Source: Natrinema sp. SYSU A 869 | GTDB taxonomy: Archaea > Halobacteriota > Halobacteria > Halobacteriales > Natrialbaceae | Reading direction: 5' to 3' | DNA length: 64,000 nucleotides | NCBI RefSeq assembly: GCF_019879105.1 | Contig: NZ_CP082249.1 | Location: 806,001-870,000, forward strand | Part shown: one piece after another, positions 23,355 through 31,661 of the stretch | How the letters are laid out: the number at the start of each line of letters is the position of its first letter | Numbering within the stretch: position 1 is the first letter of the stretch | Program-made: the position numbers and the translations under genes | Notes under the pieces: generated by a model | The model's database searches: none | What the model was told of the DNA's origin: nothing | What the model saw: only the letters and a program-made list of their open reading frames with translations

Positions 23355-24371
23355 ATGCAACAGTACCTCGAGCTCGTCGACACGGTCCTCTCGACGGGGA
23401 CTCACAAACCCAATCGGACCGGCGTCGACACCATTTCGTCGTTCAGCGAGCACTACGAGGTGGATCTACAGGAGGGGTATCCGCTGCTCACGACCAAGGA
23501 TATGGACGGCTACCGCTGGAACTCGATGCTCCACGAAGTTTGCTGGTATCTCTCCGGCGAGGAACACATCCGCGATCTCCGCGAGGAAACCAAGATCTGG
23601 GACGCCTGGGCCGACGACGACGGGAAACTGGACACGGCGTATGGCCGCTTCTGGCGTCGGTTCCCAGTTCCGGATGGGGACGCGCGACTCGAGGGCGAGT
23701 CCTGGCCCGACGAGAGCCACCAGTGGGTCACTGAGGAAGCTGACGGCCGGCGGACGTTCGATCAGTTGCAGTACGTGATCGACACCCTCTCGGATTCACC
23801 GAACTCCCGGCGACTGGTGGTCAACGCGTGGCATCCCGCCAACGCGGCCGTCTCGACGCTGCCGCCCTGCCACTACTCGTTCGTCTTCAACGTGCAGGGC
23901 GACCGGCTGAACTGCCACCTCACGCAGCGGTCTGGCGACACCGCGCTCGGCATCCCGTTCAATATCGCGGCCTACGCGCTCCTGACGAAGGTCATCGCCC
24001 AGCAGACCGGCTTCGAACCGGGCACGTTCGCCCACACCGTCGTCGACACCCACGTCTACTGCGGCCGCGGTGACCGCGGTGACTGGTACGCCGACAACCT
24101 CGAGGCACTCCAGTCCCGACTGGCCAACGCTGACGAGCGCGCGGACTATCTGGATATCAAGGCGTGGCTCGAGTCCGAAGCGCCGGCCGAGGCCAACGGC
24201 GACGAGCGCCTCGATCACATCCCCGGCCTGCTCGAGCAACTGTCTCGAGAGCCCCTCGAGCGGCCGTCGCTCGAGGTTGCGGACGTCTCGATCGACGAGC
24301 TATCGTACGAGGACGTCGAACTCCGGGACTATGAGTCCCACGAGGGCCTCGAGTTTTCGGTGGCCGAATGA
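23355..24371 (+). CDS. thyA: Thymidylate synthase
   Basis: A 338-residue ThyA. The active-site cysteine is C172 in PCHYSFVFNVQGDRLNCHLT; RSGDTALGIPFNIAAYALLT follows, and DTHVYCGRGDRGDWY matches the folate-binding C-terminal part. It methylates dUMP with methylene-THF, producing dihydrofolate. The start at 23355 (MQQYLELVDTVLSTGTHKPN) is chosen by homology and a TATA-like TTTTAGT near 23322-23328. Its last 4 bp overlap the start of folA, which recycles the dihydrofolate formed. Many archaea use ThyX instead, so this ThyA/DHFR pair reflects a folate-dependent halophile lineage. Confidence 0.95.
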   Translation: MQQYLELVDTVLSTGTHKPNRTGVDTISSFSEHYEVDLQEGYPLLTTKDMDGYRWNSMLHEVCWYLSGEEHIRDLREETKIWDAWADDDGKLDTAYGRFWRRFPVPDGDARLEGESWPDESHQWVTEEADGRRTFDQLQYVIDTLSDSPNSRRLVVNAWHPANAAVSTLPPCHYSFVFNVQGDRLNCHLTQRSGDTALGIPFNIAAYALLTKVIAQQTGFEPGTFAHTVVDTHVYCGRGDRGDWYADNLEALQSRLANADERADYLDIKAWLESEAPAEANGDERLDHIPGLLEQLSREPLERPSLEVADVSIDELSYEDVELRDYESHEGLEFSVAE

Positions 24372-24937
24372 GCGAGGATCGGAACGCGCCGGGGGACGCG
24401 ACGCCCGCGCTCGAGGCTGACCGCGAACTCGTCGGTATCGTCGCGGTCGCCGACAACGGCGTCATCGGGAAGGACGGCGACATGCCCTGGCACATCCCCG
24501 CGGATCTCCAGCACTTCAAGGAGACGACAATGGATCACCCGGTCATCATGGGCCGGGTGACCTACGAGGGAATCCTCGAGACCCTCGGCGAACCGCTGCC
24601 CGGGCGAACGACGGTCGTACTGACGAACCGGGACCTCGAGACGCCCGACGGCGCCGTGGTCGCACACGACCTCGAGACCGCACTCGAGAAGGCGTCAACG
24701 GCCGCACAGGAGCGCCACGGTGACGCCGATCGGATCTTCGTCGCGGGTGGGGCGACCGTCTACGAGCAGTTCCTGCCAGCACTCGATCGGTTGATCGTCA
24801 CCGAAGTCCACGAGGAACCCGACGGCGATACCACCTTCCCCGACTGGGATCGCGAGGAGTGGCGCGAACTCGAGCGGGACGACCGCGACGGCTTTGCGTT
24901 CGTCGAGTATGTCAGCGCGGGATCGACGGTCGAGTAG
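24368..24937 (+). CDS. folA: Dihydrofolate reductase
   Basis: A 189-residue DHFR with an acidic 20-residue N-terminal extension. The fold is marked by ELVGIVAVADNGVIGKDGDM, PWHIPADLQHFKETTMDHPV, IMGRVTYEGILETLG and FVAGGATVYEQFLPALDRL. It reduces dihydrofolate with NADPH. It is translationally coupled to thyA through ATGA at 24368-24371, and the pair closes the thymidylate cycle. Halophilic DHFRs are usually about 160 residues; the extra length is at the N-terminus. Confidence 0.95.
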   Translation: MSEDRNAPGDATPALEADRELVGIVAVADNGVIGKDGDMPWHIPADLQHFKETTMDHPVIMGRVTYEGILETLGEPLPGRTTVVLTNRDLETPDGAVVAHDLETALEKASTAAQERHGDADRIFVAGGATVYEQFLPALDRLIVTEVHEEPDGDTTFPDWDREEWRELERDDRDGFAFVEYVSAGSTVE

Positions 24938-26048
24938 CGCGGATTCGCGCTCCGCTACTCGTCGCGGACCGTTCCGCCTCTCGGTGCGCCCAGTCGGCCG
25001 TTCGAACCGCAGTCCGGTTCGGTGCCGATAGCTGCGGGTCGTTCAGTACCTGAATGGAGGTCGATTCGACGCCGCCAGTGGCTCCGGCCACCGCTGGCAA
25101 GGCGATCTGTCGACGACGGATTCCTCGATCGAGAGGCAGCCCCGCATTGCCATCGATTACCAGAGAGGGGGAGGGGTGATTGACAGCGATAAACGATAGA
25201 GTTCGCTACCGTTCGCAACGTATCACACTGTTTGTTCCGGGCGCCGCTCGATATGCCGTCGATTACCGTTTCAAAGATCGACTTTCCTCGGCCAGCAGAC
25301 ACCGCGTCGAGTTCCGGGATCGGAATCGGCAACTGTCGGATTCGCTAGAATCGCCCGCCTGAAGGGACGTTGATACGAAACACGACGTTCACAGGAAAAC
25401 GTGGCCGAATTCCGTCGGTTGGCGTCGCCCGGGGAACGATTGCCACCACACGAGTTCGATTTTCGTCTCTCATACTGCTTGACTGTCGCAGAAATGCGCG
25501 TTCCGGTCGTGGTTCTCTCCAGCGCTATCACGTTCGGTCCGTTCGCCCGGAATGTGGCAATTATAGAGATCGGTCACGACGTGTTACCCATACCTATTCG
25601 TCGATCGATAGGTGCGGCGAAGTCGGACCAGATCGCGCCGGCCGATCGTTCACGACTACAGGTCTTTTACGACTTTTACGAATCAGTTCGATGTTCGTAT
25701 TCGTCTTCTACTCCGATTCCGACGGAATAGAGGCCCGGATTCCGCCGATATACGAAGGTTGGTTGCCGCAGCCATTCTTCCACAGTACAAACGACATAAT
25801 TCGGCCCTCCTTCTGGAGAACTATACTGCACCTGTTTCTGATACTACAGGGGCCGTGATAGGCCACCGCGAATCCGGTTTTTCGAGGACGAAACTGTCAG
25901 TACTCCTCTCTCCTCCAAACCAGCGAAACAGGTGTGATGAACCTCTTCAGAAGGCTACCACTCGAGGATACTCCCAGACTGATTAAATTAATTGATACGG
26001 AAAGAAACAGTCGATGGCGTTTATTCGATAACTCGGCAAATGTCTGTC
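24938..26048. other. Large gene-poor interval of about 1.1 kb
   Basis: I find no credible gene here. The open frames (for example plus-strand frames around 25370-25986 and a minus-strand frame near 24955-25332) give Ser/Arg-rich translations without domain patterns and with codon use unlike neighbouring genes. AT content rises after about 25180. It may be decayed coding sequence or an old insertion scar. The TATA-like TTTATTCG near 26014-26021 belongs to the gene at 26075. Confidence 0.5.
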
Positions 26049-26065
26049 CACCCCGTTTGGGGTGA
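26049..26065 (+). promoter_or_regulatory. 5' leader hairpin overlapping the Shine-Dalgarno sequence
   Basis: CACCCC-GTTT-GGGGTG (26049-26064) is a perfect 6-bp stem with a 4-nt loop. The 3' arm with the next base supplies GGTGA, a strong Shine-Dalgarno match 9-10 nt before the ATG at 26075. In this genome most genes look leaderless, so a leader with a sequestered ribosome-binding site is unusual and suggests translational control. Confidence 0.5.
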
Positions 26066-26074
26066 GAGAGACAA

Positions 26075-26626
26075 ATGAGCGAACAAGATACGACAGGCGA
26101 CTCGAGACGGTCGTTCATGGCGAAAAGCGCGCTCGCGACGGGCGCAGTAGCGCTTGGAACGCTCGGGACAGGCACGGTCAGTGCACAGGCTGAAGAAGCA
26201 GCGGTCTTCGCGTCGGCCCTCCTTCCAGGGGTGGACTTCGACGTGATCGCCGAGCTCCCGACGAGCACGACAGTCGATCTGTTACAGGCGGAAGGGGAAA
26301 CCTTGCAGACGATCTCCCAGCCCGACGAGTGGAACGGGCACATCATCCGATACGATATCGGACAGGATTCGGGATACACGACGTTCCTGTTCGTGCGCGG
26401 TGGGCGGCTGAGCACTGATGACAGCGGTTCGATCGGCGAAGAGGCGTCGGTGCTGGCCGAAGAACTGAACCTCATGAGCACGACAGTTAGCGGTAATGGC
26501 GGTAATGGTGATATTGTTGAAGACGACGAAGAAGATATTGTTGAAGACGACGAAGAAGACGGAGTGTCCGAAACCAACGTGACCGTGACCGAAGGCGGCA
26601 ACGTAACCGAGAACGGAGGTGAATAA
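26075..26626 (+). CDS. Tat-exported protein with an undescribed ~95-residue domain (paralogue A)
   Basis: 183 residues. The N-terminus MSEQDTTGDSRRSFMAKSAL has a twin-arginine motif, a hydrophobic stretch (ATGAVALGTLGTGTV) and a probable cleavage site after SAQA, with no lipobox cysteine, so a soluble exported product is likely. Residues about 43-140 form the domain shared with the next two genes: FDVIAELPTSTTVDLLQ, TISQPDEWNGHIIRYD, TTFLFVRGGRL, then SIGEEASVLAEELNLMSTTV. The C-terminus is an acidic tail with a duplicated DIVEDDEE. The domain family is not known to me. Its stop is two bases before the start of paralogue B, so the two are co-transcribed. Confidence 0.75.
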   Translation: MSEQDTTGDSRRSFMAKSALATGAVALGTLGTGTVSAQAEEAAVFASALLPGVDFDVIAELPTSTTVDLLQAEGETLQTISQPDEWNGHIIRYDIGQDSGYTTFLFVRGGRLSTDDSGSIGEEASVLAEELNLMSTTVSGNGGNGDIVEDDEEDIVEDDEEDGVSETNVTVTEGGNVTENGGE

Positions 26627-26628
26627 CT

Positions 26629-26952
26629 ATGGTTCAAGACGGAGGAGATGTCATCCTGTACACGTACCACTTCGAAGCCAACGAGAGTTTCGACGTCGTC
26701 TCAGAGCTTGAGGCGGACACGACGGTGAGAGCCCTCGTCACCGCCGATCTGGAGACCGTCCCTGAGATCTCTCAGCCGGACGAATACAACGGGTACATCA
26801 TCCGATACCAGGTCGACGACGGGCCGCGGGGACCAACGGTCTTCCTGTTCACCCGCGACGAAACCCTTGAAACTGGTGATAGCGCGACGCTCGGCGAAGA
26901 GGCACAGATGTTCAGCTCTCAACTGAACCTCATCGAAACCACGTTAGACTAG
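26629..26952 (+). CDS. Small protein consisting of the same domain, no signal peptide (paralogue B)
   Basis: 107 residues, nearly all of it the shared domain: FDVVSELEADTTVRALV, PEISQPDEYNGYIIRYQVDD, TVFLFTRDETLETGDSATLG, EEAQMFSSQLNLIETTLD. Identity with paralogue A is clear in QPDE-NG-IIRY and in the C-terminal LNL(I/M)-TT segment. There is no signal peptide, so it is predicted to stay in the cytoplasm, while A is exported. ATG 26629 follows the stop of A by two bases. Function unknown. Confidence 0.75.
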   Translation: MVQDGGDVILYTYHFEANESFDVVSELEADTTVRALVTADLETVPEISQPDEYNGYIIRYQVDDGPRGPTVFLFTRDETLETGDSATLGEEAQMFSSQLNLIETTLD

Positions 26953-27057
26953 GGCCGACCTCAATTTTTATCCACGGGTTTCGATGACTTTTCCACGGTT
27001 GACGATGGCCCGAACGCCACACCGGCGGCGACTCGAGAACGAGCGGGGGCGAGCGGA

Positions 27058-27585
27058 GTGGCGACCGTCAGCGAAAGCGCACACCGATACATGAACTCAA
27101 ACCGAGAGCGGAGCGGCTCGAGCGAGCCGGACGTTCCAGTAACTGTTACGGCTGGTGATGAATCTGATAATACCGACACAGCAGGTCGAGATTCGTTCGA
27201 GGGGTGTCCGTCGGACGACGGAGACGGGTCGGAACAGTTGGTACTAGTGCCGATGAACGAGTATCGTCCGGGGATGACTGCCCGCGTCGTCGATCGGTTA
27301 CCAGCGCCGATCGTCGTCGAACTCCTCGCGCTTCCGAACGGTGAAACCGTTCCGGTTCTGACTGAGCCCGACGAGTACACCGGCTACGTCGTCCGCTCCG
27401 AACCCAGTGGGACGCAGGTCTGGACGACGATGATCGTATTTACACGCGAATCGCTGGAGAGCGGTGTGTGCTACGCGTTCGAAGCCGGCGCGCAGGTGTT
27501 CAGTACACAGCTGTCCCTCTTGCGGACGACGGCCATTCGCATCGGCTCGGCCGGTTCGTCGTCCGAAACGACCGACGACGAGTAA
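27058..27585 (+). CDS. Third copy of the same domain with an N-terminal acidic extension (paralogue C)
   Basis: 175 residues if GTG 27058 is used; ATG 27091 is an alternative start (MNSNRERSGSSEPDVPVTVT). An unstructured acidic and Ser-rich N-terminal half precedes the domain: VVDRLPAPIVVELLALPNGE, TVPVLTEPDEYTGYVVRSEP, TTMIVFTRESLESG, AGAQVFSTQLSLLRTTA. It is more divergent than A and B (EPDEYTGYVVR in place of QPDEYNGYIIR). No signal peptide is seen. It is 105 bp after paralogue B, with an AT-rich CAATTTTTATCC near 26965 that may be its promoter. Confidence 0.7.
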   Translation: MATVSESAHRYMNSNRERSGSSEPDVPVTVTAGDESDNTDTAGRDSFEGCPSDDGDGSEQLVLVPMNEYRPGMTARVVDRLPAPIVVELLALPNGETVPVLTEPDEYTGYVVRSEPSGTQVWTTMIVFTRESLESGVCYAFEAGAQVFSTQLSLLRTTAIRIGSAGSSSETTDDE

Positions 27586-27660: not shown

Positions 27661-29859
27661 ATGGATTCCTCGACCGCGCGCAATCGGCTCGACGAGGAGG
27701 AGAGCCCCTATCTGCGCCAGCACGCGGACAACCCCGTCAACTGGCAGCCCTGGGACGACCAGGCTCTCGAGGCCGCGAAAGAACGCGACGTGCCGATCTT
27801 CCTCTCGATCGGCTACTCGGCGTGTCACTGGTGTCACGTGATGGCGGACGAGAGCTTCGCCGACGAGGAGGTTGCCAACGTTCTGAACGAGAACTTCGTC
27901 CCGATCAAGGTCGACCGCGAGGAGCGCCCGGACGTCGACAGCATCTACATGACCGTCTGCCAGCTCGTTTCCGGGCAGGGCGGCTGGCCGCTGTCGGCGT
28001 GGCTCACCCCCGAGGGCAAGCCCTTCTTCATTGGGACGTACTTCCCGAAAGAGGGCCAGCGCGGCCAGCCCGGCTTTCGCGATCTCTGTGAACGCATCAG
28101 CGACTCCTGGGAGAGCGAGGAGGACCGCGCCGAGATGGAGAATCGGGCCGAGCAGTGGACCGACGCCGCGACGGATCAACTCGAGGAGACGCCGGATGGG
28201 GCGGGAGTCGAGGCCGGCGCTGCCGCGGAGCCGCCCTCGAGCGACGTACTGGAGACGGCCGCCGACGCAGTGCTCCGGAGCGCCGACCGCCAGCACGGCG
28301 GCTTCGGCTCGAGCGGACCGAAGTTCCCCCAGCCGTCGCGACTGCGCGTCCTCGCCCGGGCGTACGATCGAACCGGTCAGGAGGAGTACCGCGAGGTCTT
28401 CGCGGAGACGCTGGACGCGATGGCCGCGGGCGGGCTCTACGACCACGTTGGCGGCGGCTTCCACCGCTACTGCGTCGACCGGGACTGGACGGTCCCCCAC
28501 TTCGAGAAGATGCTCTATGATAACGCCGAAATCCCGCGGGCGTTCCTCACGGGCTACCAGCTGACCGGCGAGGACCGCTACGCCGAGATCGTCGCGGACA
28601 CGCTGACGTTCGTCGATCGGGAACTGACCCACGACGAGGGCGGCTTCTTCAGCACCCTCGACGCCCAGAGCGAGTCCCCCGCGACCGGCGAGCGCGAGGA
28701 GGGGGCGTTCTACGTCTGGACGCCCGAGGAAGTACACGACGTCCTCGAGGACGAGACCGACGCCGCCCTCTTCTGTGCGCGCTACGACATCACGGAGTCG
28801 GGTAACTTCGAGGGGCGGAACCAGCCGAATCGGGTGGCCAAGGTGTCGGAACTCGCCAGCCAGTTCGATCTCGCGGAGCACGAGATCCTGAAACGACTCG
28901 ATTCGGCCCGAAAGCGGCTGTTCGAGGCCCGCGAGGAGCGACCGCGACCGAATCGGGACGAGAAGGTCCTCGCCGGCTGGAACGGGCTGATGATCTCGAC
29001 CTACGCCGAGGCGGCGCTGACGCTCGGCGAGAACGACTACGCCGAGACCGCCGTCGATGCCCTCGAGTTCGTCCGCGACCGGCTCTGGGACGAAGACGAC
29101 AAACGGCTCTCACGGCGCTACAAAGATGGGAACGTCAAGGTCGACGGCTATCTCGAGGACTACGCCTTCCTCGCGCGGGGCGCACTCGACTGCTACCAGG
29201 CTACCGGCGAGGTCGACCACCTCGCGTTCGCGCTCGAGCTGGCCCGCGTCATCGAGATCGAATTCTGGGATGCCGAGCGCGGCACGCTCTACTTCACGCC
29301 CGAGAGCGGCGAATCGCTGGTAACCCGACCGCAGGAACTAGGCGACCAGTCGACGCCCTCCGCGACCGGCGTGGCGGTCGAGACCCTGCTCGCGCTCGAC
29401 GCATTCGCCGACGAGGACTTCGAGGGAATCGCCGCGACCGTCCTCGAGACCCACGCCAACACGCTCGAGGCGAGCGCGCTCGAGCACGCGACGCTCTGTC
29501 TTACCGCCGACCGGCTCGCGACCGGCGCGCTCGAGGTGACCATCGCAGCCGACGACCTGCCGACCCAGTGGCGCGACCGGTTCACCTCGCGGTATCTCCC
29601 CGATCGGCTCTTCGCGCTGCGACCGCCGACCGAGGAGGGACTCGAAGAGTGGCTCGAGACGCTCGGACTCGAGGACGCACCCGCAATCTGGGCGGGACGC
29701 GAAGCGCGCGACGAGGAACCGACGCTGTACGTCTGTCGCGATCGGACGTGTTCACCGCCGACCCACGACGTGGACGAGGCACTCGAGTGGTTGGGAGATA
29801 ACGCCGATGCCCTCGATATGACTGAGACGACGCTGGACGAGTCAGAGAGTCCGTTTTAG
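27661..29859 (+). CDS. Thioredoxin-domain protein of the YyaL/SSP411 (DUF255) family
   Basis: 732 residues. The N-terminal thioredoxin-like domain starts RLDEEESPYLRQHADNPVNW and has the family signature SIGYSACHWCHVMADESFAD with a CxxC-like CHWCH near residues 56-60, then VPIKVDREERPDVDSIYMTV. The remainder is an alpha/alpha toroid related to cellobiose epimerase and six-hairpin glycosidases (GGLYDHVGGGFHRYCVDRDW, VPHFEKMLYDNAE, LAGWNGLMISTYAEAALT). The precise reaction of this widespread family is unsettled. It is cytoplasmic by lack of signal. A separate thioredoxin gene converges on its 3' end. Confidence 0.92.
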   Translation: MDSSTARNRLDEEESPYLRQHADNPVNWQPWDDQALEAAKERDVPIFLSIGYSACHWCHVMADESFADEEVANVLNENFVPIKVDREERPDVDSIYMTVCQLVSGQGGWPLSAWLTPEGKPFFIGTYFPKEGQRGQPGFRDLCERISDSWESEEDRAEMENRAEQWTDAATDQLEETPDGAGVEAGAAAEPPSSDVLETAADAVLRSADRQHGGFGSSGPKFPQPSRLRVLARAYDRTGQEEYREVFAETLDAMAAGGLYDHVGGGFHRYCVDRDWTVPHFEKMLYDNAEIPRAFLTGYQLTGEDRYAEIVADTLTFVDRELTHDEGGFFSTLDAQSESPATGEREEGAFYVWTPEEVHDVLEDETDAALFCARYDITESGNFEGRNQPNRVAKVSELASQFDLAEHEILKRLDSARKRLFEAREERPRPNRDEKVLAGWNGLMISTYAEAALTLGENDYAETAVDALEFVRDRLWDEDDKRLSRRYKDGNVKVDGYLEDYAFLARGALDCYQATGEVDHLAFALELARVIEIEFWDAERGTLYFTPESGESLVTRPQELGDQSTPSATGVAVETLLALDAFADEDFEGIAATVLETHANTLEASALEHATLCLTADRLATGALEVTIAADDLPTQWRDRFTSRYLPDRLFALRPPTEEGLEEWLETLGLEDAPAIWAGREARDEEPTLYVCRDRTCSPPTHDVDEALEWLGDNADALDMTETTLDESESPF

Positions 29860-29958
29860 CGCCCTCGCTCAGCCGTTGTTCGGTTCCGGACAGGACAGTT
29901 CACTATAGCAATTCGGAGACGCAATAGATACCACGCGTCGAGGCCGCAAATCGAGGGG

Positions 29959-30333
29959 TTACGCCAGTTTCGTCTCGATCTCTTCAGCGAGCCAGACCGC
30001 CGGCGGCACGTCCTCTTCCTCGACGAACCGGGTGATCTCCTCACCCGCGTCGTTCTCCACCACGATCGTCGGGATGTACTCGATGCCGTACTCCTCGACG
30101 CCCGGCCCTTCCTTGTCCTGATCGACGTTGACTTCCTCGATACGCTCGTCTGGGACCTCGGCTGCCTCGAGCGCTGCGCCGAAGTCGGGCAGGAGAGCGC
30201 GACAGTCCTTACACCAGTCGCCGGCCCAGATCTTGTACACTAGTTCGTCAGTGTGCGCTTCGAGCGCCTCGACCGACTCCTCGTAGGACGCCGCGTCCCA
30301 CGTCGGGTTCGGCTGCATGGTCTCGAGACTCAT
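29959..30333 (-). CDS. Thioredoxin-family protein
   Basis: 124 residues from ATG 30331-30333 (MSLETMQPNPTWDAASYEES). The active site is in VYKIWAGDWCKDCRALLPDF, a WCxDC motif with Lys-Asp between the cysteines, typical of haloarchaeal thioredoxin-like proteins. The cis-proline is in IEYIPTIVVENDAGEE. The frame continues upstream but into the structured repeat at 30428-30562, so the later start is right. Converges on the YyaL-type gene. Probably a cytoplasmic disulfide reductase; its reducing partner is not nearby. Confidence 0.88.
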   Translation of the reverse strand: MSLETMQPNPTWDAASYEESVEALEAHTDELVYKIWAGDWCKDCRALLPDFGAALEAAEVPDERIEEVNVDQDKEGPGVEEYGIEYIPTIVVENDAGEEITRFVEEEDVPPAVWLAEEIETKLA

Positions 30334-30427
30334 ACGCACGACTTGTCGGTCGGTGGGCTTAACCGCGATGTTTCCGGAACGGGGGTTCGCTCGAGAGTCG
30401 TCTGCCGTTTCTCGTAACTGATCAGCC

Positions 30428-30562
30428 AACCACCGCTGGGTGGGACTGAAAGGGGCTGACTCGGTCGACGAAGACGGACGACGGAAGCACTGACCGGAGT
30501 ACACATCGCGAGCGGAGGGAGGCGCGCAACGAGTCCCTCGAGTCGACCAACTCAGGGACTTC
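30428..30562 (+). ncRNA. Structured repeat element, copy A (candidate RNA)
   Basis: A short hairpin CCACC-GCTG-GGTGG at 30430-30443 merges with the conserved core GGGTGGGACTGAAAGGGG at 30438-30455. A long stem follows: CTGACTCGGTCGAC (30456-30469) pairs with GTCGACCAACTCAG (30542-30555) at 12 of 14 positions, enclosing about 72 nt. Copy B at 33301-33433 lies on the opposite strand with an identical 18-nt core and its own version of the long stem. The overall layout, not coding potential, is conserved. No function is assigned. Confidence 0.45.
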
Positions 30563-30677
30563 TACGTGTTTGCGGTCTGCTGTCCGCTATTGTCGTCTCT
30601 CTCCCGGTTACCCACTAGCCGGCACGTCCTGCCTGAGTCCAGCACGGGTTTACGTCTCGAATACCTATTGCAGGCCA

Positions 30678-31661
30678 ATGAAAGGGAGCATCCTGGACAC
30701 GATCGGCTCGCCGCTGGTCCAGGTCGACTCGCCGGAGGGCGCAACGGTCGCGGCCAAGATCGAATCGTTCAACCCCGGCGGCTCGGCCAAGGACCGGCCG
30801 GCCCGCGAGATGATTCGGGCCGCCGAACGCGACGGGCTGATCGAGCCCGGTGACTGGCTCGTCGAACCCACCAGCGGCAACACTGGTATCGGCCTCGCGC
30901 TCGTCGCGGCCGCCCGTGACTACGACCTGACGATCGTCATGCCGTCGGACAAGTCCAAGGAACGCCAGCAGATCATGGCCGCCTACGGGGCCGACCTCGA
31001 ACTCGTCGACGGCGAAATGGCCGACGCTCGCGCTCGAGCCGAGGAACTCGAGGAGCAGGGCGCGATCCAGCTTGGCCAGTTCCAGAACCCCGCGAACCCC
31101 GACGCACACTATCAGACGACCGGCGAGGAGATCATCGAGCAGGTCGGCGACCGCGAGGTCGATGCCCTCGTCGCCGGCGTCGGCACCGGTGGCACCATCT
31201 CGGGAATCGGTCGCCGACTCCGTGAGGAGTTCCCCGATGTCGAGATCGTCGCCGTCGAACCGGCCACAAACGCCGTCCTCTCGACCGGCGAAGCCGGCAA
31301 AGATGACTTTCAGGGAATGGGGCCCGGCTTCGTCAGCGACAACCTCGACCTCGACCTGCTCGACCGCGTGGAAACCGTGAAGCTCGAGGACGCCGAGGAA
31401 GAGTGCCGTCGGCTCGCTCGCGAGGAAGGCGTCCTCGTCGGTCAATCCAGCGGCGCGACGAGCCTCGTCTCCCAGCGCGTCGCACGCGAAATCGCCGAGC
31501 CGGACCTTGAGTGTCCGGAGGTGCCGACGGCGTTCGACGAGGGACAACAGCCGGCCTCGCCCGAAACCGATGGCGGGCAGGCAGTCGACGACTGCCCGCT
31601 TATCGTCACTGTCTTCTGGGACAGCGGCGAACGGTACCTCTCGACCGGCCTCTTCGACTGA
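30678..31661 (+). CDS. cysK: Cysteine synthase (O-acetylserine sulfhydrylase family)
   Basis: 327 residues from ATG 30678. The PLP lysine is K38 in ESFNPGGSAKDRPAREMI, the substrate loop is EPTSGNTGIGLAL near residues 63-75, and the phosphate-binding glycine loop is GVGTGGTISGIGRRL. The C-terminal SSGATSLVSQ segment also fits. A C-terminal extension (CPEVPTAFDEGQQ onwards) with DCPLIVTVFWDSGERYLSTG contains two extra cysteines. It makes cysteine from O-acetylserine and sulfide, or may act on O-phosphoserine. Transcribed alone between the two repeat-element copies. Confidence 0.93.
   Translation: MKGSILDTIGSPLVQVDSPEGATVAAKIESFNPGGSAKDRPAREMIRAAERDGLIEPGDWLVEPTSGNTGIGLALVAAARDYDLTIVMPSDKSKERQQIMAAYGADLELVDGEMADARARAEELEEQGAIQLGQFQNPANPDAHYQTTGEEIIEQVGDREVDALVAGVGTGGTISGIGRRLREEFPDVEIVAVEPATNAVLSTGEAGKDDFQGMGPGFVSDNLDLDLLDRVETVKLEDAEEECRRLAREEGVLVGQSSGATSLVSQRVAREIAEPDLECPEVPTAFDEGQQPASPETDGGQAVDDCPLIVTVFWDSGERYLSTGLFD

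Follow-up and report, generated by a model that had tools for sequence, protein, structure and literature searches.

Two E. coli complexes, HybOC and PaoABC, exemplify Tat export in hitchhiker mode, in which one subunit carries the Tat signal and the genes of its signal-less partners lie adjacent, the partners being described there as cofactor-bearing enzyme subunits (PMC4273604). The gene pair A-B reported here is laid out in the same way, whereas its two products are paralogues of one small barrel, whose association we infer. Two groups of haloarchaeal proteins offer further comparison. Halocyanin-domain proteins (TIGR03102) are exported, as is predicted for most members of the present family, and one exported member (L112:1896-2819, minus strand) joins the shared domain to a halocyanin (type 1 copper) domain within one protein (TIGR03102, E 9.5e-38). 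This one informative fusion is a weak hint at redox chemistry in the envelope; A, B and C lack the copper domain, which no other member was seen to have. The antagonistic precursor HFX_0892 of Haloferax mediterranei is, like the predicted state of A, a secreted haloarchaeal protein, and is set apart by its description, which places the activity in alpha helices (PMC12893001), in contrast to the predicted beta barrel of our family. Our literature search found no work on the family itself.

Three adjacent paralogues of a small domain

The stretch of DNA analysed, hereafter the window, comprises 64,000 nucleotides of the Natrinema sp. SYSU A 869 genome. A sequence-only reading had pointed to three adjacent genes at positions 26075-27585 that share one undescribed domain, and a check of the open reading frames found these coordinates to be correct. 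The features are as follows.

26004..26027, plus strand: promoter-like element preceding A (GAAACAGTCG ... TTTATTCG), with conserved counterparts ahead of many A-type genes
26049..26064, plus strand: leader hairpin CACCCC-GTTT-GGGGTG, directly ahead of the A start, its G-C stem conserved among relatives
26075..26626, plus strand: gene A, predicted Tat-exported paralogue, 183 aa (ORF, TIGR01409)
26075..26185, plus strand: predicted signal peptide of A (SRRSFMAK ... TVSA, followed by Q); TIGR01409 18.8 bits, cut-off 16.7; cleavage site by eye
26204..26482, plus strand: shared domain of A (family profile match)
26483..26623, plus strand: low-complexity acidic tail of A, 47 residues, with two N-V-T sequons (from the sequence)
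26629..26952, plus strand: gene B, paralogue without signal or tail, 107 aa (ORF, AlphaFold model)
26650..26940, plus strand: shared domain of B (family profile match)
27091..27585, plus strand: gene C, third paralogue, with an acidic N-terminal extension of about 50 residues and no signal (ORF)
27241..27528, plus strand: shared domain of C (family profile match)

The common domain spans about 95 residues and links all three proteins, with 43 of 86 residues identical between A and B (50%, E 3e-24), 35 of 98 between B and C (36%, E 1e-16) and 30 of 105 between A and C (29%, E 3e-11); a search of the whole genome found these three copies and no fourth. Genes A and B are indeed two bases apart (26627-26628, between the stop of A and the start of B), a gap from which we infer their co-transcription. 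The three N-termini differ much as had been proposed. The signal of A passes the TIGR01409 cut-off, export itself being predicted, and its putative signal-peptidase site was assigned by eye to VSA/Q after residue 37. Neither B nor C matches TIGR01409, and B starts with MVQD, the counterpart of the mature N-terminus of A. The acidic extension of C precedes the domain from ATG 27091, judged the likelier start; the alternative GTG at 27058 would give a protein of 175 aa. A short upstream ORF (27005-27094) overlaps the likely start of C with an ATGA-style end. It was dropped as a conserved feature, as the ATG starts of 19 other C-like genes examined have no counterpart; a 22-codon upstream ORF lies at one alternative GTG start among them (G397). 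The one Rfam match in C, to che1, is below threshold and was taken as chance.

The sequence motifs proposed for the domain fared less evenly. The strand TT-x-F-(L/V)-F-x-R is present in loose form (TTFLFVR in A, TVFLFTR in B, TTMIVFTR in C), and the closing motif was found with its spacing corrected to L-(N/S)-L-x-x-TT, with two residues rather than one before the threonines. AlphaFold models of B and C, built with 40 natural sequences (mean pLDDT 86 for B; 81-96 by ten-residue blocks for the domain of C), agree in how their strands and single helix follow one another in a predicted small beta barrel, so that the modelled pair did not yield the differing folds which the sequence-only reading had named as evidence against a shared domain. 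We assume the fold of B for A as well, given their 50% identity. Foldseek returned no match under 0.001 in the PDB for either model, nor in a viral library for that of B. The best structural alignments of the two models are to OB-like barrels (EutN/CcmL, S28e, Pf3 ssDNA-binding protein), among them EutN (Z 4.8, rmsd 3.0, 66 aligned) and the Pf3 protein (Z 5.3, rmsd 3.0, 73 aligned), values below what the tool calls meaningful and under the level that shows kinship.

No family in Pfam, NCBIfam, PHROGs, PADLOC or the PDB sequences covers the domain, and the label 'undescribed' thus holds for the libraries searched. Weak matches to bacterial SH3 models were found in 3, 5 and 7 of 40 members (PF08239, PF18348 and TIGR04211, respectively; best E 0.0013). 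The bacterial SH3 domain is likewise a small beta barrel, but it has a strand at the position where the predicted family model has a helix; as the curated PF08239 cut-off was not reached and a search of the window's genome with that model (SH3_3) gave nothing at E <= 0.001, this identity was not upheld. PADLOC gave two chance-level matches, each in 1 of 40 members (best E 0.0078). Members of the family showed no recognisable toxin, enzyme, receptor or immunity domain; the sensor, inhibitor or immunity function suggested for the locus drew no support from these searches, which a toxin of an unfamiliar kind might escape. Two relatives (L094 4382-5318, L095 3878-4309) carry the public label 'calcium-binding protein'; scans of the domain region in 40 members, and of the tail of A, revealed no recognisable calcium-binding domain. 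Taken together, this is an undescribed family of predicted small beta-barrel proteins, whose usual form is predicted to be secreted through Tat.

Distribution, operon and the pairing of exported and signal-less copies

A profile of the domain alone finds the family in 66 of 391 genomes of the class, all within two haloarchaeal families. An earlier profile of the three full sequences had reached 73 of 391 genomes and two further haloarchaeal families, which disappeared with the domain-only profile and were taken as signal-peptide matches. In the window's own taxonomic family the domain is present in 72 of 125 genomes, which represent 22 of 29 genera, and the other family contributes seven genomes. 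Named records with relatives include Natrinema, Haloterrigena, Natribaculum, Halovivax, Saliphagus, Haladaptatus, Halomicrococcus and Halorussus, and nine plasmid records carry a member; none of 17 candidate stretches on viral contigs was confirmed as one, and phages gave no match.

For the analysis of export we used the 199 copies from the 79 genomes with matches (72 of the window's own family and 7 of the other), matches under 71 residues having been dropped. Export labels were set by a script from the twin arginine and hydrophobicity, with five corrected by eye and one more in the tree. By these labels a twin-arginine signal is present in 120 copies, 39 have no signal, and the remaining 40 show a hydrophobic stretch that lacks the twin arginine. 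A twin-arginine copy is kept in every one of the 79 genomes: the 20 single-copy genomes all carry this form only, and 52 of the 59 multi-copy genomes hold a copy without twin arginine in addition. When labels were shuffled, with kinship ignored, a mean of 12.8 genomes had no twin-arginine copy (minimum 3 in 50,000 shuffles), against none observed. Most copies without the motif (71 of 79) have a motif-bearing copy on their own strand no more than 1.6 kb away; the other 8 do not. On the tree the twin-arginine state changed at least 12 times, at least 7 of them on supported branches. The coexistence of secreted and cytoplasmic forms, which the sequence-only reading had remarked upon here, is therefore no accident of this locus, as the pairing is conserved and evolved repeatedly.

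The tree was built from 129 domain sequences over 97 columns and has many unresolved forks. Partial or frameshifted ORFs (L067_16311, L069_6840, L069_6887) were left out beforehand, as were five low-scoring ORFs of L079 and L093 and eight duplicate rows (137 reduced to 129). The window's A falls within a clade of 19 rows, all exported (SH-aLRT 99), B within a clade of 18 signal-less rows (SH-aLRT 96) and C within a clade of 19 non-exported rows (SH-aLRT 99); A, B and C are therefore old paralogues. Synteny of the tandem copies is likewise conserved: B follows A within 40 nt in 24 tight pairs from 19 genomes, C comes next in 18 of these pairs, and several genera have retained the A-B-C operon. 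The signal is borne only by the A-type copy in these pairs, so that the arrangement by which a hitchhiker is recognised, a signal on one partner and adjacent genes, is found in all 24. A and B are not matched by sequence similarity, identity being 0.526 within operons versus 0.525 across them (P 0.43). In two genomes, G047 and G411 (L066; L152/L153), A and B are 77-85% alike as against the usual 46-63%, which suggests that B was recently re-created from A or that gene conversion took place.

The window's operon is flanked by thyA-folA (23355-24937) and by DUF255-thioredoxin-cysK (27661-31661). G143 has the operon in the same thyA-folA ... DUF255-thioredoxin region, several genomes have a different pair or triple of the family in this slot, and others keep the A-B-C operon outside it. 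Aconitase often lies beside different family members in the slot of other genomes.

Upstream of A, the promoter pattern of the window occurs just once in exact form in the 5.67-Mb genome, with one further match at one mismatch and one at two, and thus does not mark a genome-wide regulon. Of 101 upstream regions, 45 contain a TATA-like box, and these boxes cluster 50-62 nt ahead of the start; the leader is for this reason probably short and made up mostly of hairpin and ribosome site. A conserved G-C hairpin, placed ahead of the ribosome site, accompanies about half of the signal-bearing copies: when stems of 4 bp or longer that include at least 4 G-C pairs and lie in the 45 nt ahead of the start are counted, 53 of 101 non-redundant upstream regions possess one, whereas shuffled sequences gave a mean of 12.2 (sd 3.2, maximum 22 in 200 shuffles).

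Loss of the export signal and its possible explanations

Locus after locus, a duplicate keeps the domain and lacks the twin arginine or the whole signal. The B proteins begin with M-x-Q or M-A-L-Q in 24 of 24 cases, and mature A begins with Q after AxA; B therefore equals mature A with a new start. In several genera the region upstream of the domain in C holds a hydrophobic remnant without twin arginine, such as MKRGVIAAGALAAGASALD in L061; the acidic extension of the window's C accordingly looks like a worn remnant of the Tat signal region. A further class of 29 copies without twin arginine retains both the hydrophobic core and the AxA/Q site, with varied residues in place of the motif (SRH, SRQ, SRD, SKR, SSG, SQR) and a hydrophobicity of 1.58 versus 1.55 in Tat copies (P 0.26). 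Purifying selection acts with similar strength on orthologues of A, B and C (median dN/dS 0.30, 0.31 and 0.32, respectively, from 66 pairs per gene in 12 chosen genomes), and B and C are therefore not decaying.

The exported and non-exported forms also differ in tails and composition. Tails of at least 20 residues are present in 92 of 120 twin-arginine copies, being short in the other 28, versus 15 of 79 others; on independent pairs the association of export with tail presence was not significant (7 pairs, median p 0.25). The 91 distinct exported tails contain 87 N-glycosylation sequons where their composition predicts 38, a count that 2,000 shuffles never reached; 54 of the tails have at least one, and the exported form is probably N-glycosylated on its floppy tail. 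Cysteine, missing from all 23 B cores, was found in 3 of 118 cores of twin-arginine copies, in 1 of 29 cores with a motif-less signal and in 8 of 27 C-like ones, and arginine makes up 8-9% of C-like cores versus 3%, both comparisons being uncorrected for kinship.

Three readings fit the pairing rule: B may be a Tat passenger, B may be an inside guard against A, or the domain may be active on both sides of the membrane. We favour the first, tentatively and at a probability well short of even: B, itself without a signal, would assemble with A inside the cell and then accompany it through Tat as a passenger. The reasons are that B equals mature A, is coupled to it and, like the exported cores, has no cysteine, and that passenger export makes a second signal needless. 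A would be exported through Tat and cleaved by signal peptidase at AxA/Q; B, translated directly after A from the same mRNA, would fold with A into a hetero-oligomer in the cytoplasm and be carried outside by the Tat signal of A in hitchhiker mode; C, with its arginine-rich and cysteine-tolerant core, would more likely remain inside. The absence of any higher A-B identity within operons counts against passenger export, and the 29 motif-less but otherwise intact signals, which it does not explain, suggest another export route for those copies. The fuller version, in which exported A takes out its own signal-less sibling, an arrangement recreated several times by stripping of the twin arginine, with C kept inside as a control copy, appears to us rather doubtful.

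The main rival holds that B, and also C, are cytoplasmic guards which bind the target of A or unexported A and thereby shield the cell, in the manner of an immunity protein, inhibitor or chaperone. It would account for the lack, in 79 genomes, of any that holds a non-exported copy without a twin-arginine one; a toxin and its antidote would give the same tight A-B coupling, and the cysteines and less acidic core of C are as expected inside the cell. However, neither a toxin or immunity domain nor a PADLOC family is recognised, a dN/dS of about 0.3 in all three genes speaks against fast evolution of A, and a protector that is a copy of its attacker would be unusual; we regard a guard as rather unlikely. 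Much the same doubt attaches to a dual location, by which one task is performed on both sides of the membrane and duplication split it into an outside A and an inside B and C that never meet. The correspondence of B to the mature form of A, the separate old clades under equal constraint and the missing sequence matching between A and B are all in keeping with such a split, which nevertheless leaves unexplained why the single-copy genomes all have the exported form and why no genome has inside copies alone.

Loss of the motif need not have ended export, and the copies with hydrophobic core and AxA/Q site may have moved from Tat to Sec, members of a pair then leaving folded and unfolded, respectively. 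There are 29 such copies, as hydrophobic as the Tat copies and with many different replacements of the motif. Sec signals are usually more hydrophobic, though, and no such shift was seen; B and most C proteins have no usable signal, and the class was defined partly by the same traits that were then counted, all of which makes this switch improbable in our view. Least probable is ordinary decay of duplicates, the signal being lost by drift after duplication without any special role: the decay series visible in the N-terminal regions of C would fit it, but equal purifying selection (dN/dS about 0.31), retention of the A-B-C operon across several genera and motif changes on at least seven supported branches argue against it.

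None of the libraries searched has a name for this protein family. It is common in one taxonomic family of haloarchaea and offers numerous natural replicates in which a protein loses its export signal next to a sibling that retains one. What permits such a loss thereby becomes testable, as passenger, guard and dual location predict differently within one small operon. If A does carry out its own sibling, the two would constitute a hitchhiker pair made of paralogues, in archaea.
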